This document shows, in pieces, positions 9,417-32,300 of a DNA stretch of 32,300 nt (the stretch's first letter is position 1; the number at the start of each line of letters is the position of its first letter). The notes below the pieces were generated by a model. The model was not told the DNA's origin and made no database searches. It was given only the letters and a program-made list of their open reading frames with translations. This DNA comes from Sterolibacterium sp. GTDB taxonomy: Bacteria; Pseudomonadota; Gammaproteobacteria; Burkholderiales; Rhodocyclaceae. The stretch spans positions 1 through 32,300 of the forward strand of contig JAGOVA010000029.1 of NCBI GenBank assembly GCA_018061005.1, read 5' to 3'. The position numbers were made by a program, and so were the translations under genes.

Positions 9417-9423
9417 GGCGGGC

Positions 9424-9666: not shown

Positions 9667-9675
9667 GGCAGCCTC

Positions 9676-9713: not shown

Positions 9714-9731
9714 TGGCAGTCTGCGTGCTGC

Positions 9732-9787
9732 TTCTTGCCCATTCTTGCCCAAATGCAAGGTATGCGATAAGTTCGCTCGTTCGCTCG
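9732..9787 (+). repeat. Two short tandem duplications upstream of corA
   Basis: TTCTTGCCCA occurs twice head to tail (9732-9751), and TTCGCTCG occurs twice (9772-9787). Both lie in the gap between the divergent parD and corA genes. No function is evident; replication slippage is the simplest origin. Confidence 0.6.
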
Positions 9788-9836
9788 CTCACCATCGGGC
9801 GTGGCGATCAAAATCTGTCGTGGAGATGTTCATTGC

Positions 9837-10808: not shown

Positions 10809-10817
10809 CCTGAAGTA

Positions 10818-12674: not shown

Positions 12675-12707
12675 GCGCGGGGTTCAGTGATTCAGAGATT
12701 CATTGGT

Positions 12708-13127: not shown

Positions 13128-13131
13128 GGCA

Positions 13132-13935
13132 TCAACGTCCGAAGGTGGCGAGGACGACTTCCATGAGGGCTGTGGTGATTTCAGGGTCGTCCGACAGGCT
13201 TTCGATCAGCGCGCTGCGACAGGCAATCACGGGGTCCATGCCATTGTGGATGAGTACGGCGGCATAGACGAGCAGGCGCGTGCTGGGGACTTCTTCGAGG
13301 TCGACGTCCTTCAGGTGGCGCAGGCTGCGACCGATGGAAACCAGCCGCCGGGCGGTCATTTCATCGCAGCCGGTTTCACCGCGCAGGATGGCTTCTTCAC
13401 GGCTGGCTTCAGGGAAGTCGAAACTCAGGGCGACGAAACGCTGGCGTGTCGATGGCTTCATGCTTTTCATGAAGTTCTGGTAGCCAGGGTTGTAGGAAAC
13501 GATCAGCATGAAGCTGTCAGGTGCCTGCAGCACTTCGCCGGTACGGTCGATGGGCAGTGTGCGGCGGTGATCGGCGACCGGGTGGATGACGACGGTGGTG
13601 TCTTTGCGTGCCTCGACCACTTCGTCGAGATAACAGATGCCGCCTTCACGCACGGCGCGGGTCAGCGGGCCGTCGCTCCAGTAGGTGGCGCCGCCGTCCC
13701 CGATCAGGTGGCGACCGATCAGGTCGGCCGCCGTCAGGTCATCGTGACAGGCCACCGTGAACAGCGGCAGCCCCAGTTTGGCGGCCATGTGGGCGACGAA
13801 ACGCGTTTTGCCGACACCGGTTGGGCCTTTGATGAGCAGGGGCAGACGATTGCGCCAGGCTTGTTCGAACAGATCGATTTCGTAGCCTGCGGCTTCGTAG
13901 TAAGGAATGGCGTTTTCCGGATGGGGAGCGTTCAT
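13132..13935 (-). CDS. norQ: MoxR-type AAA+ ATPase NorQ
   Basis: NorQ is an AAA+ chaperone that acts with NorD to activate NO reductase, probably by enabling non-heme iron insertion. With the ATG at 13935 the protein has 267 residues, the usual size. Walker A GPTGVGKT is at residues 37-44 and Walker B CYLDE ends at about 105. The NPGYQ and STRQRF segments provide sensor and arginine-finger-type residues. Upstream in-frame ATGs (13953 and 13998) would add residues that overlap norF and look unrelated. It is followed after four bases by the small membrane-protein gene. Confidence 0.94.
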   Translation of the reverse strand: MNAPHPENAIPYYEAAGYEIDLFEQAWRNRLPLLIKGPTGVGKTRFVAHMAAKLGLPLFTVACHDDLTAADLIGRHLIGDGGATYWSDGPLTRAVREGGICYLDEVVEARKDTTVVIHPVADHRRTLPIDRTGEVLQAPDSFMLIVSYNPGYQNFMKSMKPSTRQRFVALSFDFPEASREEAILRGETGCDEMTARRLVSIGRSLRHLKDVDLEEVPSTRLLVYAAVLIHNGMDPVIACRSALIESLSDDPEITTALMEVVLATFGR

Positions 13936-13963
13936 CAGTTTTCCAGAAGGCATGATGGGGAGG

Positions 13964-14242
13964 TCAGGCAGGATGCGGCATCCCGAAATAATAGGCAAGC
14001 CCGATGGTCATGACGACAATCACCAGCCAGAGTAGGATGATGAGCCGCCAGTGCAGGGCCGCATGACGCAAGCCCATGAATTCATCGGCGACCCACCAGC
14101 CCTTGATACCGGCGATGCCCAGCAGCAGGCCGACGGCCAGCGGGCCGTGAGCGCCTTCTTCACCGAGCAGCCAGGTAACAAAGGTGGCGATCAGCAGGGC
14201 TGCAAAGGTGAGATCCAGGGTGCGTGTATTCATGTTGATCAT
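13964..14242 (-). CDS. norF: NorF, cytochrome c oxidase subunit IV-like protein
   Basis: This 92-residue membrane protein has three hydrophobic segments (about residues 10-26, 34-50 and 66-86), as in prokaryotic cytochrome c oxidase subunit IV proteins. Such proteins accompany NorE in nor operons and support maximal NO reductase activity. The ATG at 14242 lies six bases after the norE stop; a second ATG at 14233 is possible. The identification relies on size, topology, the KGWWVADEFMGLRHA segment typical of the family, and position beside norE. Confidence 0.8.
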   Translation of the reverse strand: MINMNTRTLDLTFAALLIATFVTWLLGEEGAHGPLAVGLLLGIAGIKGWWVADEFMGLRHAALHWRLIILLWLVIVVMTIGLAYYFGMPHPA

Positions 14243-14248
14243 GGTTAT

Positions 14249-14878
14249 TCACCGCATGACATAAACGAGAGGGAAAAGGATCAGCCAGACCAGATCCACC
14301 ATGTGCCAGTAGCTGGCACCCGTTTCCATGCCGTGATGGTCGGCCGAACTATAGCCCCCCTGGCGGGTTTTGTTCCAGACTGCGAAGAGGATGACCATGC
14401 CGAGGATGACGTGCATGAAATGGAAGAAGGTCAGCGCCAGATAGAAGAAATAGAAGGTGTTGGTGGTCAGGTCGATGCCGTGGCTGAATTTGTCGGCGTA
14501 TTCGAACATCTTGACGACGAGAAAGCCGCCGCCGCAGACGATGCCCGCGATCAGCAGGCGGGCGGCGTTTTGTGCCTGATCCACCTTGATGGCCGCTACG
14601 GCGCGTGCCACGCACCAGCTGGCTGTCAGCAGCAGGGCGGTGTTGATGGCTCCGGCATTGCGGTCAAGGGTGGGTTGCAGGCTGTCGAACAGCTCAACAT
14701 TTTTGGCGCGCACGATGGCGTACGCCGCGAAGAAGATGGCAAAAACCAGCAGCTCTGACCAGATGAAGATCCAGATGGCCAGATCGCCCGGCAAGCCCTT
14801 GCCTTGAGCGCGAGGTGGATGGGCGGCGGCTGCTGGTGCGGGAGATTCGCTGGACATGGATAAAGGCGGTGTGCTCAT
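14249..14878 (-). CDS. norE: NorE, heme-copper oxidase subunit III-like protein
   Basis: The 209 residues belong to the cytochrome c oxidase subunit III family. An alanine/proline-rich N-terminal tail is followed by five or so membrane helices with WIFIWSELLVFAIFF near residue 35 and TFFHFMHVILGMV near residue 150. The C-terminal ASYWHMVDLVWLILF segment also fits. NorE is not part of the catalytic NorBC core but supports its activity in vivo. A terminator-like hairpin separates it from norB upstream; norF follows after six bases. A TAGAAT -10-like element lies about 25 bases upstream of the start, but I see no matching -35. Confidence 0.9.
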   Translation of the reverse strand: MSTPPLSMSSESPAPAAAAHPPRAQGKGLPGDLAIWIFIWSELLVFAIFFAAYAIVRAKNVELFDSLQPTLDRNAGAINTALLLTASWCVARAVAAIKVDQAQNAARLLIAGIVCGGGFLVVKMFEYADKFSHGIDLTTNTFYFFYLALTFFHFMHVILGMVILFAVWNKTRQGGYSSADHHGMETGASYWHMVDLVWLILFPLVYVMR

Positions 14879-14904
14879 CGTGGTCTTTCGATTCTACTAA
14901 AACA

Positions 14905-14926
14905 GACCCCGGCCGGAGCCGGGGTC
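14905..14926 (-). terminator. Intrinsic terminator/attenuator between norB and norE
   Basis: GACCCCGGC (14905-14913) and GCCGGGGTC (14918-14926) are perfect 9-base arms around CGGA. On the minus strand TGTTTTAG follows. It lies 60 bases after the norB stop, so it probably limits read-through into norEFQD and lowers their expression relative to norCB. Confidence 0.75.
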
Positions 14927-14986
14927 TTGAGTGCAGGTTTGTCTTGAAGCAAACAAACCGGCGGGTGCTGCATGAGTCGTGCTTCG

Positions 14987-16375
<1,389 letters not shown>

Positions 16376-16804
16376 TTAACCTTCGATGTTTGGCGGCCAC
16401 TTGGCAGTGTTGATTTCCGACGTGTACTTGAAGAACTCGACGAGATCATCCAGTTGCTTGTCGGTGAAATTGAACTGCGGCATCTGGCGACGACCCGGCG
16501 TGCCGGTCGGTTGTGCCTTGATCCAGGCCTTGATGAAATCCGGGCCGCGACGCTTGTAGACATTGCCGAGTTCAGGTGCGAAATACGCACCTTCGCCGAG
16601 CAGCGAATGACAGCCGATGCAGTTATAGGTTTCCCAGATCTTCTTGCCCGCGATTGCAGATGGGGTCAGGTTGGCCCGGTTGTCTCGGGCAGGCAGTGCC
16701 CGCTCGGTCTGGAACGTGAGGGCCAGAAATATCAGGAAGAAGAACATCGTTCCTCCGTAAAAGATATTTCGGGCCATCGACGTCGTGAATGTGCCTCCGC
16801 TCAT
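16376..16804 (-). CDS. norC: Nitric oxide reductase subunit C (cytochrome c)
   Basis: NorC is the membrane-anchored monoheme cytochrome c that passes electrons to NorB. The 142-residue protein has one N-terminal membrane anchor (about residues 14-31). The heme motif CIGCH is at 62-66 and the probable axial methionine at about 108 (RQMPQF). The ATG at 16804 is preceded by a good GGGAG ribosome-binding site. It is the first gene of norCB, and a Dnr/FNR-type box and -10 element lie upstream. Confidence 0.97.
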   Translation of the reverse strand: MSGGTFTTSMARNIFYGGTMFFFLIFLALTFQTERALPARDNRANLTPSAIAGKKIWETYNCIGCHSLLGEGAYFAPELGNVYKRRGPDFIKAWIKAQPTGTPGRRQMPQFNFTDKQLDDLVEFFKYTSEINTAKWPPNIEG

Positions 16805-16853
16805 CTCGTCTCCCTTGGTTAAGATAAAAACTACACTAAAAAACTAAAAAAGT

Positions 16854-16896
16854 ATTTTACACGCATCTTGATGATGCCATTCTTGATTTCCGTCAA
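16854..16896 (-). promoter_or_regulatory. FNR/Dnr-type box and -10 element of norCB
   Basis: On the minus strand TTGAC-GGAA-ATCAA (16883-16896) matches the FNR/Dnr consensus TTGAT-N4-ATCAA with one mismatch. A TAAAAT -10 element lies at 16854-16859. The box centre is 33 bases from the -10 centre, placing the activator near -42 of the start site, the classic class II position. The leader before norC would be about 45 bases. Confidence 0.7.
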
Positions 16897-16902
16897 CTGG
16901 AG

Positions 16903-17670
16903 TCAACTATTGATGGTTCGTTGATGCGCCGGTTGCAGGCGATCATGCAGGGTGACGACTTCACCCACAATAATCAGTGCCGGGCTGCTGAGTGCGGCCG
17001 CCTTGACGGCTTGGGGCAGGCTGGCGAGTGTGCCGGTCAGTACCTGCTGGTCGGGCAGCGTGGCATGACGCACCACCGCAGCAGGAGTGTGGTCAGACAA
17101 ACCGTGGGCGATCATCTGGCGGCAGATTTCATCGAGCGCGGCCAGCCCCATGTAGACCACCACAGTTTGATGCGGACGTGCCAGGGTCGGCCAGTCGAGA
17201 TCCACAGTGTCATCCTGCAGATGGCCCGTGACAAAAATACAGGCTTGCGCGAAATCACGATGGGTCAGGGGGATGCCCGCATAAGCCGACATGCCCGAGG
17301 CCGCCGTGATGCCAGGAACCACCTCGCAGGGAATGCCGTGCGCCACCAGTTGTTCGATTTCCTCGCCGCCGCGCCCGAAGATGTAAGGGTCGCCCCCTTT
17401 GAGGCGCACTACATCCAGCCCCTCGGTGGCCAGATCGACAAGCAGGGTGTTGATGTCTTCCTGCGGCAGGGTGTGCCGACCGGCTTCCTTGCCGACATAA
17501 ACCTGGCGGACGTGTTTGCCGATGAGCTGGCGCACGCCTTCGCCGACCAGATGGTCATACACCACGACCGCGCAATCGCGCAGCAGCCGCGCGGCCCGCA
17601 AGGTGAGCAATTCAGGGTCGCCAGGGCCGGCTCCTACCAGATGCACTGTACCGATACGTTGTGTTTTCAT
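16903..17670 (-). CDS. cobA: Uroporphyrinogen-III C-methyltransferase (SUMT)
   Basis: SUMT makes precorrin-2 from uroporphyrinogen III using two S-adenosylmethionines, the entry to siroheme, cobalamin and heme d1. The 255-residue single-domain protein has VGAGPGDPELLT (residues 12-23), RLKGGDPYIFGRGGEE (about 85-100) and the VPGITAASG SAM-site segment. There is no CysG-type fused dehydrogenase domain. I start at ATG 17670, where homology begins; an upstream extension to 17769 is rich in polar residues and unlike the family. Its position between the nirS group and norCB suggests it acts as NirE for heme d1, but sequence alone cannot separate NirE from general CobA. Confidence 0.93.
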   Translation of the reverse strand: MKTQRIGTVHLVGAGPGDPELLTLRAARLLRDCAVVVYDHLVGEGVRQLIGKHVRQVYVGKEAGRHTLPQEDINTLLVDLATEGLDVVRLKGGDPYIFGRGGEEIEQLVAHGIPCEVVPGITAASGMSAYAGIPLTHRDFAQACIFVTGHLQDDTVDLDWPTLARPHQTVVVYMGLAALDEICRQMIAHGLSDHTPAAVVRHATLPDQQVLTGTLASLPQAVKAAALSSPALIIVGEVVTLHDRLQPAHQRTINS

Positions 17671-17805
17671 CGTCGGATTTTCGCATCCATTACCGGGTTG
17701 AAACGGATTGAAACGGGAAGTTTTTGAATTTCTCTGGCGCATTTCTTGACGCATTTCGACAGATCCCATGGCGCCTCCGGGCGGGCTTTTACGATGCTGG
17801 AAATG

Positions 17806-17834
17806 ATGAGCGCCGAGGGGGCGTCGGCGCTCAT
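17806..17834 (-). terminator. Hairpin after the EB_dh-like cytochrome gene
   Basis: ATGAGCGCCGA (17806-17816) and TCGGCGCTCAT (17824-17834) form a perfect 11-base stem with a 7-base loop. It lies 58 bases beyond the stop of the minus-strand cytochrome gene and before cobA. The T-run is weak, so it may attenuate rather than stop transcription. Confidence 0.55.
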
Positions 17835-17891
17835 GGGGTCATGAAAAGTACATTCGTTTATTCCGGCGTGCCGGATTAACAGGGACAGGGC

Positions 17892-18767
17892 TTACTGCTT
17901 GGCCGCCGTAATGTCGGCCTTGGCATCGATGCCCAGCGTATAGCCCAGTGAAACGTGGTGGAAACGTCCCAGCGCGCTGTCGTCATGGATGGCGAAGCCG
18001 AAGTTGTAGACCTTGCCGGGTGCCATGACGATATCGCCTTCACCCCCGCCGGCCAGCTTGCGGGTCACGGTCACAGTCCAGGTGTCGCCCTTTTGCTCGC
18101 CCTTGGCTTCAACCAGCCCCTTGCCGCCTTCCATCACACGCTTGTCGGCAACGTAACCATCCACCGCCTTGCCCTTGCTCTTCCACTGAATAAGGTCGTA
18201 GAACTTGCCGGTTTTGACATCGCCACCGGGGACGTACTTGGTCTTTTTGTCATCCTTGGCATCCGGCATGGTGCGGGAGTCGCCATGACAGGTTTCCCAG
18301 CAGCCACTCTGGCTGGCGCGCTCGATCTTGTTGTCTTCGAGCATGAAGGCGAGCTTGACCGGATTTTCCTTGTCCATCTTCTCGCCGCCGCTGGCCGCAG
18401 GCTGTTTCCAGGTGAAGCGCAGGTAAAGGTTGCTGCCATCGTTGGCCGCCTGAACATCGACCGGGATGCTGCCTGCCTTGCCCTTGATGGGCTTGGGTTC
18501 ATTCTTCTGACCCAAAACGATCTTCTTGCCCATGTCGGCGGTTTCATCGCTATGGCAGTCGACGCAGCGCTCGCCTTTTTTGAACGCCTTGGCACCGCCG
18601 TGTTCCGTTCCCTTGGTGATCCATTCCATCGGGGATGCACCCGGGTAGAGCAGGACGATCTTCTTGCTGGGCACTTTGCTCCAGTCGGGGGCAGCCGCGA
18701 GCGCGTGGCCGCTGGCCGCGAGCGACAAAATCAGACCCAGGGCGGAAGAGGTGATCAGCTTATGCAT
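17892..18767 (-). CDS. Periplasmic cytochrome with ethylbenzene-dehydrogenase-like heme-binding domain
   Basis: The ATG at 18767 follows a near-perfect AAGGAGT, giving 291 residues with a clear signal peptide (cleavage after about residue 25, HALAAA). A standard c-type heme motif CVDCH is at 68-72. A second motif, CWETCH at 156-161, has three residues between the cysteines (CX3CH). The body, with IPVDVQAANDGSNLYLRFTW and FGFAIHDD, resembles the cytochrome c-552/DMSO-reductase-like heme-binding (EB_dh, PF09459) family, which includes the gamma subunits of ethylbenzene and selenate dehydrogenases. No molybdoenzyme lies nearby. Placed downstream of nirS and the NapC/NirT gene, it is probably an electron-transfer partner between NirT and NirS or another reductase (inference). 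Confidence 0.85.
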   Translation of the reverse strand: MHKLITSSALGLILSLAASGHALAAAPDWSKVPSKKIVLLYPGASPMEWITKGTEHGGAKAFKKGERCVDCHSDETADMGKKIVLGQKNEPKPIKGKAGSIPVDVQAANDGSNLYLRFTWKQPAASGGEKMDKENPVKLAFMLEDNKIERASQSGCWETCHGDSRTMPDAKDDKKTKYVPGGDVKTGKFYDLIQWKSKGKAVDGYVADKRVMEGGKGLVEAKGEQKGDTWTVTVTRKLAGGGEGDIVMAPGKVYNFGFAIHDDSALGRFHHVSLGYTLGIDAKADITAAKQ

Positions 18768-18840
18768 GGAATGACTCCTTGAATGTGGTGAAACTGGAAT
18801 GAGATGGGGCGTGTGGATCGTGAAGGGAGGAGTGCAGCGT

Positions 18841-19434
18841 TTACTCATCATCTTCCTTCATGCCCTTGGGTTTGTGGTGAGCAATTCCCTTGTGGCAGTC
18901 GATGCAGGTCATTTTGTCACGCTGGGCATTCTCATGCTGTTTCTTGGCGCGCTGTTTTTGTGCTTCCGGGTTCATGCCATCAAAGCTGTGGCAGTTGCGG
19001 CACTCGCGGGAATCGCTGTCCTTCATGCGCTTCCATTCGTGCTCGGCCAGTGTCAGGCGTTTGGCCTCAAACTTCTCTTTGGTATCGATGGTGCCCATGA
19101 TCTTGCCATAGACTTCCTGCGAAGCCTGGATCTTGCGCATGATCTTGTGCGTCCAGTCTTTCGGTACGTGGCAGTCGGGGCAGGTCGCGCGCACGCCGGT
19201 GCGGTTCGAGTAATGGATGGTCTGCTTGTATTCCTGATACACGTTATCGTGCATTTCATGGCAGGAGATACAGAAATCAAGGTTGTTCGTGGCTTCCATG
19301 CCGGTGTTGAACGCGCCCCAGAAAACAATGCCGGAAATAAAGCCGACGATGATCAGGGTGAGCAGGGAGTATTTTGCGCTTGGGCGCTTGAGCATGGCCC
19401 AGAGGCCGGGTTTTGGATTGTTGTGATCACTCAT
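18841..19434 (-). CDS. nirT: NapC/NirT-family tetraheme quinol dehydrogenase
   Basis: Proteins of this family take electrons from the quinol pool and pass them to periplasmic reductases. The 197 residues hold one N-terminal membrane anchor (about residues 23-42) and four CxxCH heme motifs: CISCH 55-59, CPDCH 85-89, CRNCH 145-149 and CIDCH 177-181. Length and spacing fit NapC/NirT. No napA or napB is in the window, while nirS is immediately upstream, so NirT is the better name, as in Pseudomonas stutzeri nirSTB. A strong terminator lies between nirS and this gene. The EB_dh-like cytochrome follows 73 bases downstream. Confidence 0.9.
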   Translation of the reverse strand: MSDHNNPKPGLWAMLKRPSAKYSLLTLIIVGFISGIVFWGAFNTGMEATNNLDFCISCHEMHDNVYQEYKQTIHYSNRTGVRATCPDCHVPKDWTHKIMRKIQASQEVYGKIMGTIDTKEKFEAKRLTLAEHEWKRMKDSDSRECRNCHSFDGMNPEAQKQRAKKQHENAQRDKMTCIDCHKGIAHHKPKGMKEDDE

Positions 19435-19516
19435 TTTGTTTCTGCCTTTGACCTTGGGCTACCGTAGCGATGCTTGTTGATGTGCGCTTGCTGCAAGGAC
19501 TGTGGTTGTGCGGTTG

Positions 19517-19548
19517 AAAAAAGGGCGGGAGCTGCGCGCTCCCGCCCT
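19517..19548 (-). terminator. Intrinsic terminator of nirS
   Basis: Perfect 11-base arms (19522-19532 and 19538-19548) around a 5-base loop are followed on the minus strand by six Ts. It begins ten bases after the nirS stop. This is the cleanest terminator on the minus strand here, implying that nirS is expressed above its downstream neighbours. Confidence 0.88.
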
Positions 19549-19557
19549 GTGACATCA

Positions 19558-21288
19558 TTAATAGATGTCGTGCTGCGTGTTGTAGACGTTGAACTTGCCA
19601 GTCGGTGTGATCATCTTTGGATCGGTGATCACCTTCTTCAGTGCCAGTGTCTTGTCGTCATACACCACGATGGCCGACTGATCCGCCTTGCCGCCCCACA
19701 GCGAGATCCAGACTTCGGTGCCATCCGCACTGTATTCCGGATGCACGGCGCGGCGGGTGGCCTTGGTTTCAGGCAGGCCGGAGTCCTTGGCGACGTTGAT
19801 GACCTTCACCGGCTTGGAAAGATCGTCCATGTTCCAGACCGCCACCGATTCAGCCAGCGTCTTGTCCGGGTTTTGCGGAGAGTCTGCCCAGAAATGCTTG
19901 GACTTCGGATGGGTCTTGACGAACAGGTTGCCCGGAACGTGCTTCATTTCCTGCACGACCTTCCAGTTATGCTGCTTGTACTGGGCAAACTTCTTTTCGT
20001 CGGACGGGGTCGAGATCAAGGTCACGACATCGGCACCGAGGTGACCCGTCGCCCAAACCGGACCAAACTTCGGATGGACGAAGTTTGCACCACGCCCCGG
20101 ATGCGGGATCTTGGCGGTATTGACCAGTGCGGCCAGTTTGCCGGTTTTGGTGTCGACTGCAGCAATCTTGTTGGAAGCATTGGCCGCCACCAGGAAGTAA
20201 CGCTTGGACGCATCCCAGCCGCCGTCATGCAGGAACTTCGCTGAGCCGATAGTGGTCGTCTTCAGGTTTTCGATGTCGGAATAATCCACCAGCAGAATCT
20301 GGCCGGTTTCCTTGATGTTCACAACCCACTCCGGCTTGATGAAGGAAGCCACGATCGAAGCGACGCGCGGTTCCGGATGGTATTCGCCATCCACGGTCAT
20401 GCCCCGGGTGGAGACCACCTTGCGCGGCTTCAGCGTGTCGCCGTCCATGATGACGTACTGCGGCGGCCAGTAGGAACCGGCAATGGCGTACTTGTCTTCA
20501 AAGCCCTTGAACTTGGAGGTGTCGACCGAGCGGGCATCGAAGCCAATCTTGACTTCAGCCACCACGGCCGGTTTTTCCATCCACAGGTCGATCAGCGATA
20601 GGCGGCCATCGCGACCGATCACGTACACATAACGGCCGGAAGCCGACAGGCGCGAGATGTGCACCGCATAGCCCGTCTTGACGATGCTGCGGATTTCCTT
20701 GGTGTCGCCATCAATCAGCGCCACTTCGCCGGTATCACGCAGGGTGACCGAGAACATGTTCTTCAGGTTGTACTTGTTCATCTGCTTGGTCGGACGTTGG
20801 TCGACCGGCACGATGACTTTCCAGGAGTCCAGGGTTTCCTTGAAGCTGTACTCGGGCGGCACATCTGGCGTGGTCTGGATGTACTTCGCCATCAGCGAGA
20901 TTTCATCTTTGGTCAGGATGTCGTCGAAGTTCACCATGCCGCCTTCAGTGCCATAGGTGAGGATCTTTTCCAGACGGTTCTGGCCGAGCTTGAGCGTGCC
21001 GCCCTCCTGGGTCGAGCCATCCGGCAGCTTCTTGCTCCAGTGCGGTTCCAGGTTCTTGCCCGTCGCACCCTTACGCAGCACGCCGTGACAACCGGCACAG
21101 CGTTCGAAGTAAATCTTCTTGGCAGCGGCCTTTTCGTCGGCACTCAGGGTCGGTGCCACGGGTGCGGCGGCGGCGGTTTCGACCGCTTGCTGGGCGTGGC
21201 TTACGCCAAACGCGCCCATCAGTGCCAACGGCAGCACAGCCAAGCGCAACATATGATTTCTATGGCCTGAAGGTTTCGATATCGTCAT
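19558..21288 (-). CDS. nirS: Cytochrome cd1 nitrite reductase
   Basis: NirS is the periplasmic dimeric enzyme that reduces nitrite to NO. I start at ATG 21288, preceded by AAGGGG; the 576-residue precursor has a signal peptide ending near HAQ (residues 31-33). The N-terminal cytochrome c domain has CAGCH at 64-68 and a probable axial methionine at 118. The C-terminal eight-bladed propeller binds heme d1 through His210 (YAVHISR). The catalytic histidines are His354 (LHDGG) and His396 (HPGRGANF), spaced 42 apart as in P. aeruginosa His327/His369. The C-terminal PTGKFNVYNT is characteristic. A perfect FNR/Dnr box lies about 97 bases upstream. Confidence 0.98.
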   Translation of the reverse strand: MTISKPSGHRNHMLRLAVLPLALMGAFGVSHAQQAVETAAAAPVAPTLSADEKAAAKKIYFERCAGCHGVLRKGATGKNLEPHWSKKLPDGSTQEGGTLKLGQNRLEKILTYGTEGGMVNFDDILTKDEISLMAKYIQTTPDVPPEYSFKETLDSWKVIVPVDQRPTKQMNKYNLKNMFSVTLRDTGEVALIDGDTKEIRSIVKTGYAVHISRLSASGRYVYVIGRDGRLSLIDLWMEKPAVVAEVKIGFDARSVDTSKFKGFEDKYAIAGSYWPPQYVIMDGDTLKPRKVVSTRGMTVDGEYHPEPRVASIVASFIKPEWVVNIKETGQILLVDYSDIENLKTTTIGSAKFLHDGGWDASKRYFLVAANASNKIAAVDTKTGKLAALVNTAKIPHPGRGANFVHPKFGPVWATGHLGADVVTLISTPSDEKKFAQYKQHNWKVVQEMKHVPGNLFVKTHPKSKHFWADSPQNPDKTLAESVAVWNMDDLSKPVKVINVAKDSGLPETKATRRAVHPEYSADGTEVWISLWGGKADQSAIVVYDDKTLALKKVITDPKMITPTGKFNVYNTQHDIY

Positions 21289-21378
21289 GTTTTTAACCCC
21301 TTTTCTATAGTGAGTAGGTGAAGCGGACAGCAATAAAATTAATGCTTGAAGTTTCGTCGGTTAGCGCAATCTATGTCA

Positions 21379-21392
21379 TTGATTAAAATCAA
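21379..21392. promoter_or_regulatory. Perfect FNR/Dnr box between nirS and the FecR-domain gene
   Basis: TTGAT-TAAA-ATCAA is an exact match to the FNR/Anr/Dnr consensus and is palindromic, so it could serve either gene. Its centre is 97 bases from the nirS ATG and 154 bases from the FecR-domain gene. No ideal -10 is found 33 bases away on the nirS side; candidate AT-rich -10 elements lie about 47-50 bases away, consistent with a more distal activator position. Confidence 0.75.
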
Positions 21393-21538
21393 TCAATTCT
21401 TGGTTTTTTTTGTAAGGAAAACCCGCGTGTCATTGAAGGGTAAATCCTACATGAATTGAATGTCATTACCTTGGGCGTTCCGGCAGGTGAGCTCGCCTAT
21501 ACTGCAGGTCATGGGTTGTTTTTGTCAGGAAGAAAATC

Positions 21539-22315
21539 ATGGGTTCTATGAATGTGGCGCGTGTTGTGTTGTGCGGTTTTTGTCTGGCCGGTTTTTTGCT
21601 GCCTGGAATCGTTCAGGCAGGTAACGCCGGGACGGTGATGGCTACTTCCGGGGCGATTAGTGCCGTGACGGCAGAAGGCAAATCGCGCACGCTCCAGAAA
21701 GGCTCGCCGGTGAGTTCCGGCGATACGCTGGTGACGGGTAAGGGCGGGCACGTCGATGTGCGCTTCAGTGATGAATCCATGGTGCAGTTGCGTCCGGAAA
21801 CCCGTTTTCGTATCGATGATTACGCCTATGCCCGCAGCAAGTCAGGGACGACTCAAGGCGGCGAGGCCGAGCCGCGCAGTTTTTTCAGTCTACTCAAGGG
21901 TGGGTTCCGCGCGGTGAGCGGCATGATCGCGAAAATCAAGCGTAGCAATGTGGCGGTGGTAACACCCACGGCTACGATCGGTATCCGTGGCACGGATTAC
22001 ATGGCCTCGCTGGATGAGCGCGCTGGTTTGCGGGTCAGTGTGGCGCGCGGTGAAATCTCGCTGGACAACAAGGCGGGCAGTTTTTCTGTGGCTGAAGGGC
22101 AGGGGGCTTATGTGCCGAATGCCGACAGCGCGCCGACGTATATATCGCTGGATGGCGGTGGCTCGTCGGGCGGTCACCAGGCAGGGGCTGCCCGGGGCGG
22201 TGTGCAGATCAAAGGAAATACGCGGATTGAAGCGAATACGGAGCGCACCGGTGCGATTGCCGTCGGGCAGGAAAACCGCGCGGTCAACCAGGCCGGGGTG
22301 ATCGGCGGCGACTGA
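21539..22315 (+). CDS. Secreted FecR-domain protein
   Basis: The 258 residues begin with a signal peptide (hydrophobic residues 6-25, probable cleavage after VQA at 27). A FecR-type beta domain follows: KGSPVSSGDTLVTGKGG, VDVRFSDESMVQLRPET and VAVVTPTATIGIRGTDY, about residues 50-190. The C-terminal part is glycine/alanine-rich and low in structure, containing GGGSSGGHQAG. There is no membrane segment, and no FecI sigma factor or TonB receptor lies nearby. It is therefore not a classical iron-signalling FecR but one of the free periplasmic FecR-domain proteins of unknown role. AGGAAGA precedes the ATG. It diverges from nirS across a perfect FNR/Dnr box and could be co-regulated. Confidence 0.85.
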   Translation: MGSMNVARVVLCGFCLAGFLLPGIVQAGNAGTVMATSGAISAVTAEGKSRTLQKGSPVSSGDTLVTGKGGHVDVRFSDESMVQLRPETRFRIDDYAYARSKSGTTQGGEAEPRSFFSLLKGGFRAVSGMIAKIKRSNVAVVTPTATIGIRGTDYMASLDERAGLRVSVARGEISLDNKAGSFSVAEGQGAYVPNADSAPTYISLDGGGSSGGHQAGAARGGVQIKGNTRIEANTERTGAIAVGQENRAVNQAGVIGGD

Positions 22316-22368
22316 CACTGATCTCGGCGTTGTTTCTCTTTGTTTCTGTTGGTGGTGATGCAGCGTGA

Positions 22369-22947
22369 TCAGTGCCAGACGGATTTGCAGAGGGTGATTT
22401 CCTGATCTGTCATCACTGGCTTGATGACGCACTGGCGCTCCAGGGCTTCCTGCAGTCGGGTGCGTTCACGAGCGGCCTCTTCCTGTGCCTGCCTGCGCGC
22501 GGCAAGTCGTTCTTCCTTGAGTTTTAGTGCCACTTCCTGTTCGGCTTTGCGCTGGGTTTCTGCTTGTTGTTTGCGTTCGGCTTCACGCTTGAGCTCTGCG
22601 GCCAGCAGATCGAGTTTTTCCTGGCGTTGTTTGGTGTCGGTGGCAGCCGATGCGGAAGGCTGGGTTTCCGCATTCAGGGTGTTTCCAGGTTCGGATTGAT
22701 CTGATTGATCTGATGGTTCCGTGGCGGCTGATTTGTGACGGATTGTTGCGGTCACCCCCGAAATCAGTTTTTGAGCCCCGCTTTCCTCGGTATGTGTCGC
22801 GGCATGGCTGCTGTCGTGTGTCGTGCTGTGTGCAGCTGCGCCGCGCCGCGCGTGAGCATCGAGCGGCGTGATGGCGAAGAGTGTGGCTGCAATCGTGGCG
22901 GCTGCGATGCAGAGGGCAGGCAAGGGTGGATTCGCGGTCAGGGTCAT
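22369..22947 (-). CDS. Hypothetical secreted coiled-coil protein
   Basis: I do not recognise a family. The 192-residue product has a hydrophobic N-terminal segment (about residues 9-28) that looks like a signal peptide. A low-complexity Ser/Thr/His/Ala region reaches about residue 105. From about 105 to 170 a strongly charged Glu/Lys/Arg/Gln heptad-like stretch predicts a coiled coil (KREAERKQQAETQRKAEQEV). The end, QCVIKPVMTDQEITLCKSVW, has two cysteines that could form a disulfide. AAGGA lies upstream of the ATG. It follows parC on the same strand after 45 bases and converges with the FecR-domain gene. Confidence 0.75.
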   Translation of the reverse strand: MTLTANPPLPALCIAAATIAATLFAITPLDAHARRGAAAHSTTHDSSHAATHTEESGAQKLISGVTATIRHKSAATEPSDQSDQSEPGNTLNAETQPSASAATDTKQRQEKLDLLAAELKREAERKQQAETQRKAEQEVALKLKEERLAARRQAQEEAARERTRLQEALERQCVIKPVMTDQEITLCKSVWH

Positions 22948-22992
22948 GGCTGGGTTCCTTGTTGGCGAGTGTGCGTCAGGTGGATGGGCGTG

Positions 22993-25359
22993 TTACAGCG
23001 GTAGTTTCTTGCCGGGGAGGGGCGTGCCTTTGCGCGCCCGTTGCCCCTGGTGTTTGGCCAGATCGTCGCCTTTCAGGGTGAGTGGGGTCGTTTTGTTGCG
23101 CTCGCGACACGCCAGGGTCAGGGTCTCGCCATTGCAGTAACCGCAGGCCACTAGTGTTTGTTGTGCTTCCAGACTTTGCAGCATGACACCACGTCCCTTG
23201 CCGAGCACCTTGATTTCGCTGGCATCGAACATCAGCAGGCGTCCGTTGCTGCTGGCTGCCCACAGATGCGTGGCGTTGGCCTGCGGTACGACCACAGGGG
23301 ACAGGGGGGTTTCGCCTGCATCCAGGCTCATGAAAGCCTTGCCCGCCTTGATGCGGCTGGCCAGGTCGCTCACGCGGGAGACAAAGCCGTAGCCGCCACT
23401 GTTGGCAAAGAGATATGCGGCTTCAGGGGAGGCAGACAGTGCCTGAGCACGTTTGCCGTTGTCCTGCAGGTCGATCAGGGTGGCGAGTGGTACGCCATCG
23501 CCTTTGCCGCCGGGGATGGATGAGACGGGGATGGTGTAGGCGCGGCCATTCGTGTCGAGAATGATGAGTGGCCAGGTCGTGCGTGTTTCAAAGACGGCAA
23601 AGCCTTCGTCGCCGGTCTTGTAGTTGATGCTCTCGGTGGCAATGCCATGGCCTTGACGTGACCGTAGCCAGCCCGCTTTGGAGAGGATGACGGTGACCGG
23701 TTCGTCAGGCACGCTGGTTTTCAGATCGCCGCGTCCGGCACTGCTGGAAGCGTCTTCTTCAATCAGGGTGCGGCGCGCATCACCGTGGGTTTTGGCATCG
23801 CCTTCGATTTCCTTGATGATGGCGCGCGTCATGGCGGCTCGGTTGTCGAGCAGGTTTTGCAAGGTGCTGCGTTCCAGATACAGCTCGCCCAGCTCCTTTT
23901 CGATCTTGATGCCTTCCAGGCGCGCCAGCTGGCGCAGGCGGATTTCAAGGATGTCTTCGGCCTGGATTTCGCTCAGACCGAAGGCACTCATCAGGTTTTG
24001 TTTGGGATCATCGGATTCGCGGATGACGCGGATCACTTCTTCGATCCGCAGGAAGGCGATCATACGGCCTTGCAGGATGTGGATGCGCCGATCGACTTCA
24101 TCGAGCCGGAAGCGCGTGCGCCGTTCGACGGTGACGTAACGGAAATCCACCCATTCCTGGAGAATCTGGCGCAGATTTTTCTGTTGCGGATTGCCATCGC
24201 GCCCGATCATGGTCAGATTGAGCGAGGCCGAAGTTTCCATCGAGGTGTTGGTCAGCAGTACCGCCATGAAATCCGCCACGGCGATGCGTGAGGAGCGCGG
24301 TTCGAGGATCAGGCGCACCGCTTCAACATCGCTGGATTCGTCGCGCGCCACGTCGAGCACCGCCAGCACGGCGGCCTTGAGGTTCTTCTGTTCCTGGCTG
24401 ATGTCTTTTTTGCCCGCACGCGGTTGCGGGTTGGTGACGGACTCGATTTCCGCCATCACCTGGGCGACAGAAACACCATGCGGCAGTTCATTGACGATCA
24501 CGCGCCACTGACCACGCGCCATTTCCTCGACGCGCCAGCGCGCCCGCACCCGCAGGCTGCCGCGCCCGCTTTCGTAAGCATCGCGCAGGGTGTTGGAGGA
24601 GGAAATGATCTGGCCACCCCCCGGAAAATCCGGTCCATGGATGTGCTGAAGCAGATCGGTCAGCGTTGCCTCGGGGTGGCGTATCAGATGAATGGCGGCC
24701 TGCGCGACTTCATGGAGATTGTGTGGCGGGATTTCTGTCGCCATGCCCACGGCAATGCCGGACGCCCCATTGAGCAGCGTGAATGGCAGGCGGGCGGGCA
24801 GCAACACGGGCTCTTCAAAACTGCCGTCGTAATTGGGGCGGAAGTCGACCGTGCCGCGATGGACTTCGGCGAGCAGCAGTTCGGCAATCGGCGTGAGACG
24901 GATTTCGGTGTAACGCATGGCCGCTGCGCCGTCGCCATCGCGTGAGCCAAAATTACCCTGGCCATCGGCGAGTGGATAACGCAGGCTGAAATCCTGGGCG
25001 ATGCGTACCATCGCGTCATACACCGAGGAGTCGCCATGCGGGTGGAGTTTGCCCAGCACATCCCCGACCACCCGCGCTGACTTGACGTGCTTGGCGGTCG
25101 CCGACAGGCGCATTTCGTGCATGGCATAAAGAATGCGTCGCTGGACGGGCTTCTGCCCATCTTCGACCTGTGGCAGGGCGCGCCCCTTGACTACCGACAT
25201 GGCATACGCCAGATAAGCGCGCTCGGCAAACAGATCGAGCGGCGCGGCATCATCAGGCAGGCGGGGCTGCTCTATCGGCGGTGGCGGCGGTGGCAGAGAT
25301 GAATGTGATGTGTCGTCATCAGCCGTGGTGCTGAAAAGATCCAGATTGTCGTTGCTCAT
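22993..25359 (-). CDS. parC: DNA topoisomerase IV subunit A
   Basis: ParC is the DNA-cleaving subunit of the enzyme that decatenates daughter chromosomes. The 788-residue protein has a proline-rich N-terminal tail containing six consecutive prolines, then the winged-helix and tower domains. The catalytic tyrosine is at about residue 150 (AAMRYTE). The quinolone-determining region [12 protein letters not shown] keeps Ser111 and an acidic Asp115, the wild-type, drug-sensitive pattern. A C-terminal five- or six-bladed domain replaces the GyrA box, and its shorter length separates ParC from GyrA. parE is not adjacent upstream, where a divergent lipoprotein gene starts. Confidence 0.96.
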
Positions 25360-25555
25360 ATTTCGTATTCAATAGGCTAGCAAAATCCAAACCGCCAGCA
25401 TAGCCCGCGATAGCAGGCCGGTGCAAGCTGGTGCAACAGCCGTCGGTAAAATTCCAGCGGCGGCTGGGTTACAGCCCTACAGTCGGCCAGGTAAATTTCC
25501 GTTAAAACGATTAACCTGCAGACATTTCCAGCGTGTCTCTCGATAGGGTGATGCC

Positions 25556-26500
25556 ATGAATACATGTTGTTTCTCCGTAAGAAGCCTGTCTGCCGGGCTG
25601 CGGGCGGTCTTGCTCGTGGCGGCTGTGGTGGGGCTGGTCGGCATGGCGGGCTGCGCCGCTGCGCCGCAGAAGAAAGCAGGCTCCGCCAAGGTCGAGCGCG
25701 AAGCCAATGCGTCCACACTCACGCTCAACGCAGAAAGCCGGGTACGTCAGGTGCTCGATGCCGTGCCACCCGAGTCGTTGATGGAGCACTTCGAGGCTTA
25801 CGATACGCAGGGGCGTTTGTGGTCTTATCTCGCGATGACGGACACCGAGGCGGGCGGCGTGCTGTTTATGGATGACCGTTTGCAAGGGACGCTCACGCGT
25901 CAGGATGTACAGGCTTTTTACGCCTGCCGTGGCCATGTCATGATGGCCGATCGTCGTTACTGGGCCAGCGAGTTGCAAGCCTGGCTGGAAGGTTTGCAGA
26001 CGCGGGTTCATCCGGAAACATCCGTATTGCTCGAGTTTTCTGGCAAGTCGACCGTGCAGAGCATCAAGGAAGCGACGGAAAACCCGGTGCTCGGGCGCAT
26101 CCGTTCGCTATTGGGGATGGGGACGAATCCCTTGAATATCTTCAGCACGCTCAGTTCGGCACGCAACGAATACGATGCCAGCGAACAGTTCAAGAATGAA
26201 ATCGCCGCCATGAACCAGCTCAAACCCGGGATGCGGGAGACGCGACTGGCCGAGATTGCCAACCCGCAGGATCTGGGGTTTCTGGATAAAGGAATACTCA
26301 TGGCCTATCCGACGCATCGTGCCGAATACTTCATCGTGGATGGGCAGATACGCGTGATCCAGCAGCCTTCGCTGTACACAATGTCGCGACTCAAACCGGC
26401 GGTGTTCTACCTTCCCGACGTGCAATGGTCACGCTGTAATCCAAAAGAATGGATGGACGCGCTCCCCAAAGCGCAGCCGACAGAAGCAGGAGCGCAGTGA
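25556..26500 (+). CDS. Orphan lipoprotein of unknown function
   Basis: The 314-residue product has a lipoprotein signal: basic and hydrophobic residues 8-30 followed by the lipobox MAGC, with the lipidated cysteine at 33. The mature part begins with a flexible Ala/Lys stretch. The rest is soluble, with LWSYLAMTDTEAGGVLFMDD near residue 87 and a C-terminal cysteine in WSRCNPKEW. I recognise no domain. It is divergent from parC (196-base gap) and followed by a gene-poor region, so neighbours give no functional hint. Export to the outer or inner membrane is expected; residue +2 is Ala, which favours the outer membrane. Confidence 0.8.
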   Translation: MNTCCFSVRSLSAGLRAVLLVAAVVGLVGMAGCAAAPQKKAGSAKVEREANASTLTLNAESRVRQVLDAVPPESLMEHFEAYDTQGRLWSYLAMTDTEAGGVLFMDDRLQGTLTRQDVQAFYACRGHVMMADRRYWASELQAWLEGLQTRVHPETSVLLEFSGKSTVQSIKEATENPVLGRIRSLLGMGTNPLNIFSTLSSARNEYDASEQFKNEIAAMNQLKPGMRETRLAEIANPQDLGFLDKGILMAYPTHRAEYFIVDGQIRVIQQPSLYTMSRLKPAVFYLPDVQWSRCNPKEWMDALPKAQPTEAGAQ

Positions 26501-26524
26501 CGCCCGTTGAATGAAAATCAAGCG

Positions 26525-26640
26525 TCCCTGTGTCTCGGTTTGTGCGACCTGATGTCCATCGCGATCGGCTTCGACGATACGGCCGTGATGAGTGAGTCTG
26601 TCGGGTAGGGGCTTCGTTCTCTGGGTATCGTCAGCCATGC
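26525..26640 (-). pseudogene. Possible remnant of an IS21-type istB C-terminus
   Basis: The minus-strand translation contains LPDRLTHHGRIVEADRDG, which resembles the conserved C-terminal end of IstB helper ATPases (DRLTHHCHIVE-type). Only about 30 residues are recognisable and no Walker motif, IstA or terminal inverted repeat was found. If correct, this is a scar of an IS21-family insertion at the island border. The resemblance is from memory and could be chance. Confidence 0.3.
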
Positions 26641-26980
26641 GGGTAGCGGTGGGGGTCAGGCGGCGATGGCGTGCCGCAACTGGGTGATGATCTGCGCGGC
26701 CTGGGTCGCCCCGGCGGCCACCCCTGACCCTACCTCTGGCGCGAGCAGACGCGATTGCTGTCGTCGGCACCCCAGTCTCCGCCGCTGTAGCAGTCTCCAA
26801 CCACAACCGGGCGTCTCTAAGCCCTTGTCGCGCAAGGAAGTCGCCCTGGGAGCACTCCACGGACGCGAGAGAAAAACAGAGAACAGAGAGCCTTCGGAGC
26901 GGCTGGCGGCACGCGCGGGGCGCGCGCGTGTCCGAGAGGCGATGCTCGCAAATCCTGCAACCACGCGGGGAACGGGCAAA

Positions 26981-27010
26981 AAAATCCCAACCGATCAGGG
27001 TTGGGATTTT
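26981..27010. terminator. Bidirectional intrinsic terminator
   Basis: AAAATCCCAACC (26981-26992) and GGTTGGGATTTT (26999-27010) form a perfect 12-base stem with a 6-base loop, with A- and T-rich sides that work on both strands. It lies about 95 bases beyond the stop of the minus-strand helicase and probably ends its transcript. Confidence 0.85.
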
Positions 27011-27104
27011 GATAAATGGTGGCGTGTGGCTGACCAATCGTTTTGTGGACTCCCAAGATTAAACGCAATGGCGCGGGATTGTGAGGAACGGCGCGGGTTT
27101 CGCG

Positions 27105-28061
27105 TCAATTTGCATCCTTTTCTTCCGCCATCCGGTAGCCCATCGCTCGGTAGCCGCGCTGGCGTTTTTCCCACATCCGCAGCAGCGCCGGGTGGCCGGT
27201 ATCGACGAAATCGATGATGCGCACGTCGGTCTTGGTGGCATGCTCGCGGTGCAGTCGACCCGCGTATTGCTGCAACGTCCCCTTCCACGAAACCGGCATT
27301 GCCAGCACCAAAGTGTCGAGCGGCGGATGGTCGAATCCTTCTCCGACCAGCTTGCCGGTCGCCAGCAGAACACGCGCTGCATCGGGTGGCAGCGCGTTAA
27401 GTTCCGCGATCAGGGTGGTGCGCTGCTTCTTGGCGACCCGCCCGTGCAGGACAAACAACGATGGCATCTTGTCGCCCAAGGCGGTTTGAATGGCATCGAG
27501 ATGCTCGGTGCGCTCGGTGAGCACCAACACCTTGCGGCCCTGGTCATAGGCGCCAATGACTTCGGCAGCAATCGCGTCTGTTCGGGCTTGGTCAATGGCA
27601 AGGTGCCGGAACACATCCTGAATCCCCGCCTCCTGCGGCAAGTCAATTCGTGAGTGCAATGTGCATGGCGTGACCGCCAGATCGTGCGGCGCACCCGTTG
27701 GCTTGGCGGCGGTGTGGCGAGTTGGCCCGCATTGCATGAAAATAATCGGTTGCTGGCCATCGCGGCGAATCGGCGTGGCTGTCAGGCCGAGCACGTATTT
27801 GGCTTTGGCCTGCTTCAGAATTACATCGAAGGACGCTGCGCCAACGTGATGGCATTCGTCAACGATCACGTGACCGTAGTTTTCGACCAGCGAATTCACT
27901 TCACCCTGCCGCGACAGCGATTGCATCACCGCGATGTCGATTTTGCCTGTCGGCTTGGCCTTGCCGCCACCAATGGTGCCGACCACTCCCTTGCCAACGC
28001 CTAAAAATGATTGCAGGCGTTCTTGCCACTGCTTGAGCAGTTCGGTTCGATGCACCAGCAT
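27105..28061 (-). CDS. SF2 (DExH) helicase, N-terminally truncated
   Basis: The 318 residues start at motif Ia (LVHRTELLKQW) and contain motif II DECHH (68-72), motif III LTATP (93-97) and the C-terminal helicase half with QYAGRLHREH (motif VI). The ATP-binding motif I (GxGKT) and everything before it are missing, so ATPase activity is not expected. The sequence resembles the C-terminal helicase region of large multidomain proteins found in TOTE-type conflict systems and phage-defence islands (from memory). The ATG has GGAG just upstream and lies five bases after the rhuM stop, so the fragment could still be translated. The join looks like a recombination scar. Confidence 0.8.
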   Translation of the reverse strand: MLVHRTELLKQWQERLQSFLGVGKGVVGTIGGGKAKPTGKIDIAVMQSLSRQGEVNSLVENYGHVIVDECHHVGAASFDVILKQAKAKYVLGLTATPIRRDGQQPIIFMQCGPTRHTAAKPTGAPHDLAVTPCTLHSRIDLPQEAGIQDVFRHLAIDQARTDAIAAEVIGAYDQGRKVLVLTERTEHLDAIQTALGDKMPSLFVLHGRVAKKQRTTLIAELNALPPDAARVLLATGKLVGEGFDHPPLDTLVLAMPVSWKGTLQQYAGRLHREHATKTDVRIIDFVDTGHPALLRMWEKRQRGYRAMGYRMAEEKDAN

Positions 28062-28066: not shown

Positions 28067-29149
28067 CTATTCCTCGGCGATGTCCGGTTGGCTGCCGGAC
28101 TCGATCTGCTTGATCACCCGATCAAAGTCACTCTCAAACAAGCGGTCTTGCACGATGCGGTATTTCTCGAACTCGCTCATCGCGTGGGCCTTGGCGATTT
28201 CTGCCGTCACCTTGCCCGCGTCTTGCAGCACTTCCCGGTCGGTTGCCTCAATGAAGCGGTTCAGGCGCGTTTCCCAGTCCTGCATGGTCATCGGGATTTT
28301 GCGCAGCGCCATATCCTCGGCCACATCGAGGTAGGCCGACACCAGCCGCTGCAACTGGGCAATCTCGTGTTCGGTCAGGTAATTCTTGGCGACCACCACA
28401 TCGAACTTCTGAATCTTTCCTTGCGGCCCGTCCTTCCAGGAGGTTAGCCCCATATGGTCTTTGTCGGCATCAGCGCGGTGGTAGATGACTTCTGCAGCCG
28501 TCTGTCCATGAATGGCCCAGTGCAGCTTGTTTTGGACTGTGGCATAAAAACGCTTGGTCGCCTGCGCGGTGACGTCGTAGTCCATCGAAGTGGCGTAGAT
28601 GTCGGTGATCTTCTGGTAAAACTTGCGCTCGGATGCGCGGATTTCCCGGACTTTTTCGAGCTGGCGCTCAAAGAAATCAACCGTCAGGATGCTGCCGCCC
28701 CCTTTAAGGCGTTCGGCATCCATGACCCAGCCCTGAATCGTGTAATCCTTGACGATCTGGTTGGCCCATTTGCGAAACTGCACCGCGCGTTCGTTTTCGA
28801 TCTTGAAACCCACGGCAATGATGGCCTGCAGGCTGTAGTGATCCACCTTGCGCTGAACCTCACGCTCGCCCTCGGTTTGAACCATTAAGTACTGCTTAAC
28901 AGTTGCCTCGCGCTCCAGCTCGTTGTCGGCATAGATGCGCTTCAAATGCTGACTGACGGCGGGCACCGACACATCGTAGAGCGTGGCCATCATTTTCTGC
29001 GTGAGCCACAGGTTTTCATCCTCGTAGCGCATGTCCACGCTGCTTTGCGCATTGCCGGTTGCGGCCACGAAGGTCAGGTATTCGGCCGCTGAGGAACGGA
29101 CGAGGGAGACTTCGTTTTTCTTGGGAATTTGCCGTTTGCTTTTGCTCAC
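28067..29149 (-). CDS. rhuM: RhuM-family protein
   Basis: The 360-residue protein belongs to the RhuM (virulence protein RhuM) family often found inside type I restriction-modification loci; its biochemical role is unknown. The N-terminal half has an ANT/helix-turn-helix-like segment (WLTQKMMATLYDVSVPAVSQHL, shown here only in part by its WLTQKMMATLYD core). It is followed by HYSLQAIIAVGFKIENERA and FRKWANQIVKDY, typical of the family. The C-terminal half continues with a FYATVQNKLHWAIHGQTAAE segment. It starts at GTG 29149, three bases after the hsdM stop, so it is coupled to hsdM. It appears intact while both flanking genes are damaged. Confidence 0.88.
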   Translation of the reverse strand: MSKSKRQIPKKNEVSLVRSSAAEYLTFVAATGNAQSSVDMRYEDENLWLTQKMMATLYDVSVPAVSQHLKRIYADNELEREATVKQYLMVQTEGEREVQRKVDHYSLQAIIAVGFKIENERAVQFRKWANQIVKDYTIQGWVMDAERLKGGGSILTVDFFERQLEKVREIRASERKFYQKITDIYATSMDYDVTAQATKRFYATVQNKLHWAIHGQTAAEVIYHRADADKDHMGLTSWKDGPQGKIQKFDVVVAKNYLTEHEIAQLQRLVSAYLDVAEDMALRKIPMTMQDWETRLNRFIEATDREVLQDAGKVTAEIAKAHAMSEFEKYRIVQDRLFESDFDRVIKQIESGSQPDIAEE

Positions 29150-29152: not shown

Positions 29153-30613
<1,461 letters not shown>

Positions 30614-30617
<4 letters not shown>

Positions 30618-31318
30618 TTAGCATCCTTTGAGATGTCGCCAGTCAGCGCGCTCAGTTCGGTCTCGATGATCTCAATACTCGGCAGAACGCTTTGCAAATT
30701 GTCAGGCAGCGCCCTGGTAAGTTCATAACTGGCGATGCCGATGGGTTTGTCGATGCCGCGTAAGGCATATTCAGCCAGCACATTATCTTTTGATTGACAG
30801 AGCATGAGCCCGATGGTGGGCGCGTCGTTGGCATGGCGGAGCATGTCATCCACCACATTGCAATAGAAGTTCAGTTTGCCGGCGAATTCGGGTTTGAAGT
30901 CACCGCGCTTAAGCTCGATGACCACAAAAGCGCGCAACTTGAGGTGGTAAAAAAGAAGGTCAATGTAAAAATCCTTGTCGCCGACGGCTAGCGGGTATTG
31001 CCGACCGACAAACGCAAAACCTTGCCCCAGTTCAAGCAAAAACTTTTCCAGATGCGCAATCAACCCGGTTTCCAGCTCACGCTCGTGAAACGTCGCGTCC
31101 AGCGTCAGGAAATCAAACACATACGGGTCTTTGAGCGTCTGCTGCGCCAATTCCGACTGCGTTGCCGGCAGGCGTGCAGCAAAATTGTTAATCGATTGGC
31201 CCTGCCGTGCATGGGCTTGGCTGTCAATCTGTAGTGCCAAGGTATTGCGGCTCCAGCCGTGGCTGAGTGTTTGCACCATGTACCAGCCGCGCAACTCAAG
31301 ACGCTTTACCTTTTCCAA
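30614..31318 (-). CDS. DUF1016/YhcG-type PDDEXK nuclease, N-terminally truncated
   Basis: The 234 residues cover the C-terminal nuclease domain of the DUF1016 (YhcG) family. They include HGWSRNTLALQID (about 20-32), DPYVFDFLTL, FAFVGRQYPLAVGDKDFYID and VVIELKRGDFKPEFAGK. The Asp and Glu-x-Lys residues form the PDDEXK site. Intact members have about 340-370 residues with an N-terminal DUF1016_N domain, which is missing here. The frame begins at a TTG right at the junction with hsdR sequence (about 31321). It overlaps the hsdM start by four bases, so it belongs to the hsdM transcript. Such proteins accompany type I loci and may contribute to DNA cleavage or defence; activity of the truncated form is doubtful. 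Confidence 0.82.
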
Positions 31319-31320
31319 CA

Positions 31321-32300
31321 GTAACCCTTGCTGCGCACATCGCGCATGAAGAGCAGCACTTCCAGCGGCTTCACGTCGGTGCCGGTGGCGATCATGTCGA
31401 CGGTGACCGCGATGCGCGGGTTGTAGTCGTTACGAAAACTGGACAGGATGCTGTCGGTGTCTTCTTCCGCGCGGTAGGTGAGCCGATTGATGAATCTGCT
31501 GAAGATGTCTCGCTCAACGAAGTGCAACAAACCGTCAAACAAGAAAAGTTGGTGCGCTACAACGCTGCTGTACCCATCGAGACTTTCGATTTCATCATCA
31601 TCGATGAATGCCACCGCAGCATCTACAACCTGTGGAAGCAAGTACTCGACTACTTTGATGCCAGCCTGATCGGCCTTACCGCCACGCCTGACAAACGCAC
31701 CTTCGGCTTCTTCAATGAAAACATCGTCGCCGAATACACCTACGAGCAATCGGTGGCCGACGGCGTCAACGTCGGTTACGACGTGTACGAGATTGAAACC
31801 GAAATCACCCAGAAAGGTGCCGAGCTAAAGGCCAAAGAATGGGTCGATCACCGCGACCGACAAACCCGTAAAAAGCGCTGGAGTGAAACCGAAGAAGACA
31901 CCGCCTACACCGGCAAAGAGTTGGACCGCTCCGTAGTCAACGTCAGCCAGATCCGCCAAGTGATTCAGGCCATGAAAACCGCCGTGGAAACGCAGATTTT
32001 CCCGGCGCGCAAAGAAGTCCCGAAAACGCTCATCTTCGCCAAAACTGACAGCCACGCCGACGACATCATCAACATCCTGCGCGAGGTCTACGGCCAAGGT
32101 AACGCCTTTTGCAAAAAGGTCGCCACTCAGGATGGAGTACATGCGCTGGATGGTGCTGATGCACACCTGCGAATGGAGGTTTTCGCCATCGTGGCGAAAC
32201 ACAGTGAAAACGCAATCCGGGCGGCTGGTCCAACAACATTTGGACTGGCGCGCCTTCGCCTTCTGGGCACGTCAACGTGAACCTCAACAACGGCAACTTG
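31321..32300 (-). pseudogene. hsdR: Type I restriction endonuclease subunit HsdR, scrambled and incomplete
   Basis: HsdR is the translocating ATPase and nuclease subunit. Three collinear pieces of one protein are present. Minus strand about 32200-32122 encodes QVCISTIQRMYSILSG. Plus strand 31480-32121 encodes the next 214 residues, with DECHRS (31603 on) and LTATP (31675 on), ending GNAFCKKV. Minus strand 31479-31321 continues TYRAEEDTDSIL, YNPRIAVTVDMIATGTDV and FMRDVRSKGY. The middle piece is inverted. Phase is kept across both joints if it is turned back. The gene then stops at a join with the DUF1016 gene, so the C-terminal third, including motif VI, is missing. The 5' end lies beyond the window, and upstream of about 32200 the frame is not clearly HsdR. 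Confidence 0.88.
31480..32121 (+). other. Inverted internal segment of hsdR (642 bases)
   Basis: This segment reads as HsdR on the plus strand while both flanks read as HsdR on the minus strand. Codon phase fits at both ends: GGC|GAG at one joint and GTC|ACC at the other. Only short similarity (GGYGA, plus-strand 31477-31481 and minus-strand 32124-32120) is shared at the breakpoints, so there are no long inverted repeats as in known invertible hsdS cassettes. Confidence 0.8.

Follow-up and report, generated by a model that had tools for sequence, protein, structure and literature searches.

As assembled, the window (contig C64 in its entirety, 32,300 bases) carries a 642-base inversion within a fragment of the type I restriction gene hsdR, and this much is confirmed. 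On balance, we favor a single recent event, a reciprocal, illegitimate inversion within a type I restriction-modification (R-M) island in decay. The joints are reciprocal and have little or no homology, and the relatives compared do not share the arrangement. A sequence-only reading of this DNA had offered an illegitimate inversion of this kind as one of three explanations, and it is the best supported of them.

An hsdR segment is reversed between its flanks

The reversed segment lies on the strand opposite to both of its hsdR flanks (Table 1). Its plus strand is open from EPIDESAEDV through GNAFCKKV (214 aa), and its protein identity to the closest relatives is 94-96%. The relatives used throughout are the best 80 of at least 554 confirmed stretches, and we compared the three hsdR pieces with 20 of them by blastn. 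The pieces adjoin in the relatives, and only the middle one is reversed in the window, with the flanks on the minus strand and the middle on the plus strand, just as the sequence-only reading had proposed. In L008, a metagenome-assembled genome (MAG) of Candidatus Accumulibacter regalis, they occupy positions 5947-6000, 6001-6642 and 6643-6802. When the L008 protein was searched against the whole assembly, the middle piece matched with E = 2.5e-136 and the downstream flank with E = 2.3e-27, while the short upstream flank by itself was weaker (E = 4.3e-4). Given these E-values, chance is excluded as the source of the hsdR matches.

Table 1. Features at the right-hand end of the window
Feature	Position	Strand	Remarks
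Helicase gene without N-terminal part	27105..28061	-	ResIII match starts at position 58 of 164
RhuM-family gene of the island	28067..29149	-	PF13310, 1.9e-107
hsdM	29153..30617	-	two frames, split near 29820 at a homopolymer run
YhcG/DUF1016-type PDDEXK nuclease gene, 5'-truncated	30614..31318	-	directly abuts the hsdR fragment
hsdR flank immediately downstream of the inverted segment	31320..31479	-	53 codons, TYRAEEDTDSILSS...KGY; hsdR homology stops there
Left inversion joint	31479..31480		sites share two exact bases (GA) in inverted orientation
Inverted internal hsdR segment	31480..32121	+	642 bases, 214 codons; helicase motifs DECH and LTATP
Right inversion joint	32121..32122		179 bases from contig end
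hsdR flank immediately upstream of the inverted segment	32122..32175	-	18 codons, HSQVCISTIQRMYSILSG
Contig end without hsdR homology	32176..32300		hairpin 32181-32199; tentative retroelement-template-like stretch 32208-32297

A separate scan of 30900-32300 returned eight terminator-like hits, against 2.2 (sd 1.4) in shuffled sequence. Those at 31442-31916 include at least five that fall within the inverted segment, on the minus strand; the hits overlap one another and are probably meaningless.

The joints are exact and share almost no sequence

Both joints keep the reading frame, and zero bases are lost or gained at either. This holds base by base in ten relatives, one of which (L020) is itself broken at joint 2, the end of the middle piece, and by blastn in 20. 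The earlier expectation that the frame would run on through both joints once the segment was turned back is thus upheld. The shared breakpoint sequence is shorter than the five or so bases first estimated: the exact run common to both sites is two bases (GA), or four of five if one mismatch is allowed (GGcGA/GGtGA). Compared with pairs of sites picked at random within the middle segment, a two-base exact run has P = 0.16. In wider windows, the two sites agree at 5/8 (P = 0.027), 6/14 (P = 0.11), 10/20 (P = 0.017), 14/30 (P = 0.011) and 18/40 (P = 0.0085) positions. This likeness is slightly above chance, and we judge it weak because five window sizes were tried.

The joints carry no inverted repeats, and those detected in the sequence sit elsewhere. 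PhaseFinder finds invertons through a scan for inverted repeats (PMC11892184); the two joints here have two exact consecutive bases in place of such repeats. Together with the outer limits of the hsdR homology, they make four non-homologous joints in the last kilobase of the contig (31319/31320, 31479/31480, 32121/32122 and 32175/32176).

Relatives carry the three parts in collinear order

Because the middle piece was the query of the scan, the 80 relatives were selected for a full match to it. A search with the separate parts of the L010 HsdR found upstream, middle and downstream in line and in one orientation in 78 of the 80, and a reversed part in none. The two exceptions lack the downstream part: homology breaks there in L020, and in L041 the contig ends 29 bases on. 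An earlier, ungapped test of the flanks had passed 57 of the 80 relatives and failed 23, of which the separate-part search found 21 to be collinear.

We also surveyed 395 genomes of the family, scoring two candidates per genome. A match to 31250-32300 occurs in 131 of them, the source genome counted, and many of these are short motif stretches. Among the matches listed, those in other genomes extend past a joint by 7 bases at most. The family sample appears to include Accumulibacter, since the match in genome G049 has coordinates identical to those of L006, an Accumulibacter MAG.

Codon comparison with L008 gave 61 synonymous and 9 non-synonymous differences in the middle piece, 2 and 0 in the upstream flank, and 14 and 3 in the downstream flank. 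In a comparison with 13 of the 80 relatives, differences in the fragment are mostly synonymous, and four residues of the window occur in none of these 13. With codon differences so largely synonymous, the break reads as recent, or else not real. Signs of decay in the fragment are almost absent, as would also be expected of an artifact.

Damage to hsdR of this type is not confined to the window. In one draft genome of the family (G323:C34; L130, about 6555) hsdR jumps from residue 330 to 517 through an internal deletion, and the frame changes. In another (G097:C10; L131 8262-8725) a relic matches about residues 1-119 and 468-522, its two matches overlapping so that the ends and the exact joint are uncertain. 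From these two deletions we conclude that the gene occurs broken in other family members too, those being drafts.

The surrounding R-M island is incomplete

Missing from the sequence-only reading were two facts: hsdR is already a fragment, and the contig stops shortly beyond the right joint. Homology to hsdR is limited to 31320-32175, where three pieces cover 285 of 926 residues. A search with the 926-residue L008 HsdR matched residues 255-541 in this contig and did not find the rest of the protein in the assembly, a 3.08 Mb draft in 135 contigs that is 93% complete. Methylase_S has no match above the Pfam cut-off genome-wide; the best (20.9 bits against 22) sits on contig C59, outside this locus. 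The HSDR_N_2 profile exceeds its cut-off on C59 only, although this model may not suit the present HsdR type.

Other hsdR-like matches in the genome are distant, at 32% identity on C59, 27-36% on C76 and 20% on C128. A different hsdR copy as donor of the segment, the finding by which the inversion was to be refuted, is disfavored at identities of 20-36%. Middle and downstream identities correlate across relatives (Spearman 0.65 over 56 of the 80, after filtering on length and identity had removed 24). At about 9300-15200, C59 holds a second, distant hsdR-like gene with an 866 aa open frame and a weak HsdS-like match nearby.

In relatives, the island runs hsdR, hsdS, further genes, hsdM. In the window, hsdR lacks its two ends, hsdS is missing, and the DUF1016-type gene has lost its start. 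That gene has a complete YhcG_C domain and only positions 102-137 of 137 of DUF1016_N, below cut-off; the profiles match from about position 129 of 355. The hsdM frame is intact at the split site in the six relatives checked, and the break in the window may stem from genuine slippage or from an error in sequencing. The N-terminally truncated helicase gene starts directly after the RhuM gene, which suggests another deletion joint near 28064. The assembly yielded neither a complete hsdR nor an hsdS above the cut-off, hsdM at the locus is split, and the locus is best read as the wreck of a type I R-M island.

The contig end

Contig C64 ends at 32300, and its final stretch resembles plasmid DNA only faintly: 14 plasmid records, 13 of them from Vibrio, match over 25 bases at 96% (E = 0.4). 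In the one record examined, the Vibrio plasmid NZ_CP068640.1, the match falls inside a short ORF that neighbors two reverse transcriptase genes. Compared pairwise with this record, none of 2000 letter shuffles reached the score of the contig end under two scoring schemes, for a target chosen after the search. The stretch at 32208-32297 may, tentatively, be a template of a diversity-generating retroelement; RVT_1 has zero matches in the genome. The 30-residue contig-end peptide matched nothing in plasmids or phages, and a DNA search of phages gave one weak match (31 bases, E = 0.4). In IMG/VR, neither one degenerate pattern for the right joint nor a 24-base contig-end word found a match.

Origin of the inversion

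We consider it fairly probable that the inversion is a real event. In that case, the remaining hsdR fragment would have been cut at two places in the cell and the 642-base stretch rejoined in reverse. The rejoining would be a conservative exchange of ends using about two shared bases, with end-joining as the presumed chemistry. That it happened once, and the order of events, we infer. Selection against a restriction subunit left without methylation partners is a possible driver: by extension from post-segregational killing, a broken hsdR might be favored upon loss of modification. To our knowledge, however, type I systems generally lack such killing, which counts against this driver. Post-segregational killing is described for type II systems (PMC3031569). 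Our literature search found nothing on small microhomology inversions, invertase-driven intragenic inversion or intragenic invertons.

Because the contig stops so soon after the right joint, the chief alternative to a real inversion is chimerism of the contig end. Amplification or library chimeras, or a misassembly in a poorly supported end, would then have reversed the segment and left the whole last kilobase chimeric, which would also cover the joins of hsdR to its DUF1016-type neighbor and to the final 125 bases. We hold this to be possible but doubtful. Assemblers require long shared words to join sequences, and the two sites share two bases; since an assembler will not join over so few, the molecule itself would have to be chimeric. 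Independent chimeras are, moreover, unlikely to give two reciprocal joints at which nothing is lost or gained, and exact reciprocity with almost no shared sequence would argue for a real molecule. Yet four joints are clustered in the last kilobase before the contig end, the genome is a draft of 135 contigs at 93% completeness, and the sequence between the joints is undecayed. Library preparation does yield chimeras, and inverted ones are described from multiple displacement amplification (PMC3842359). As a control, we aligned three 19.9 kb stretches of the genome, one of them window positions 8001-27900, with three genomes of the same genus. The main blocks against one of these, G002, come to about 31 of 59.7 kb by tally, with only about 3.4 kb of the C128 stretch aligned. 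Over this portion, neighboring blocks at one G002 place lie on the same strand, which we count against the chimera.

Enzymatic routes fare worse. A site-specific recombinase acting on cryptic sites in hsdR would fit the exactly conservative exchange, and L020 (apparently the same record as G053:C101) lends it some color: its hsdR homology ends at the joint 2 base (6642), after AAGGTC, and the remaining 837 bases of that contig close with a frame that by eye resembles a tyrosine recombinase. The C-terminal half of the L020 hsdR was not found in G053. The CKKV/TYR codon boundary would then be a recombination-prone site used by mobile elements of this family of bacteria, where a recombinase made the exact inversion, a proposal to which we give little credence. 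The likeness of the two sites supports it only through the best of five window sizes, the sites share just two consecutive exact bases, and a profile scan of five island ORFs and the inverted segment found no recombinase family. With several relic breakpoints to compare, a single coincidence carries little weight, and we consider recombinase action very unlikely. Still harder to sustain is the reversible switch raised in the sequence-only reading, whereby flipping the segment turns restriction off; we regard its probability as negligible. The frame would hold at both joints, and invertible type I R-M loci that work via hsdS are reported. But the segment is part of an incomplete restriction subunit in either orientation, and so is almost certainly not a switch: only 285 of 926 HsdR residues are present and the ends of hsdR are missing. 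In addition, no HsdS exceeds the cut-off, hsdM is frameshifted into two frames, the joints lack inverted repeats, and no reversed part occurs in the 80 relatives.

Overall, the inversion has the look of an unremarkable scar in a defense locus under decay, or of a contig end gone wrong, rather than of an on/off switch. A short inversion can mimic a switch when its joints alone are read, with the frame kept in a gene that is fragmentary. If real, the present one is a clean natural case of an exactly reciprocal intragenic inversion, with about two shared bases, in a restriction gene whose partners are gone. Otherwise, it flags a contig end due for trimming.

Comparison with known systems

The type I HsdR of L008 contains the same three parts. 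Measured against the full protein, the window retains about residues 256-540 of 926, of which 214 are reversed. Phase-variable invertible hsdS loci, such as that of pneumococcus, likewise invert DNA within a type I R-M locus. They are reported, however, to act among hsdS genes and to need repeats, whereas here a fragment of hsdR is inverted between repeat-free joints. Inverted chimeras from multiple displacement amplification (PMC3842359) are short-range inversions without long repeats, as is this one, but the window has two exactly reciprocal joints. A likeness in mechanism comes from a plasmid carrying the PaeR7I R-M system in E. coli, which is reported to undergo illegitimate recombination of a reciprocal kind at 1 or 3 bp of identity (PMC3031569). 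That exchange was also reciprocal, used 1-3 bp of identity and involved an R-M system; it joined plasmid and chromosome in laboratory E. coli, whereas the one described here is an inversion within a gene.
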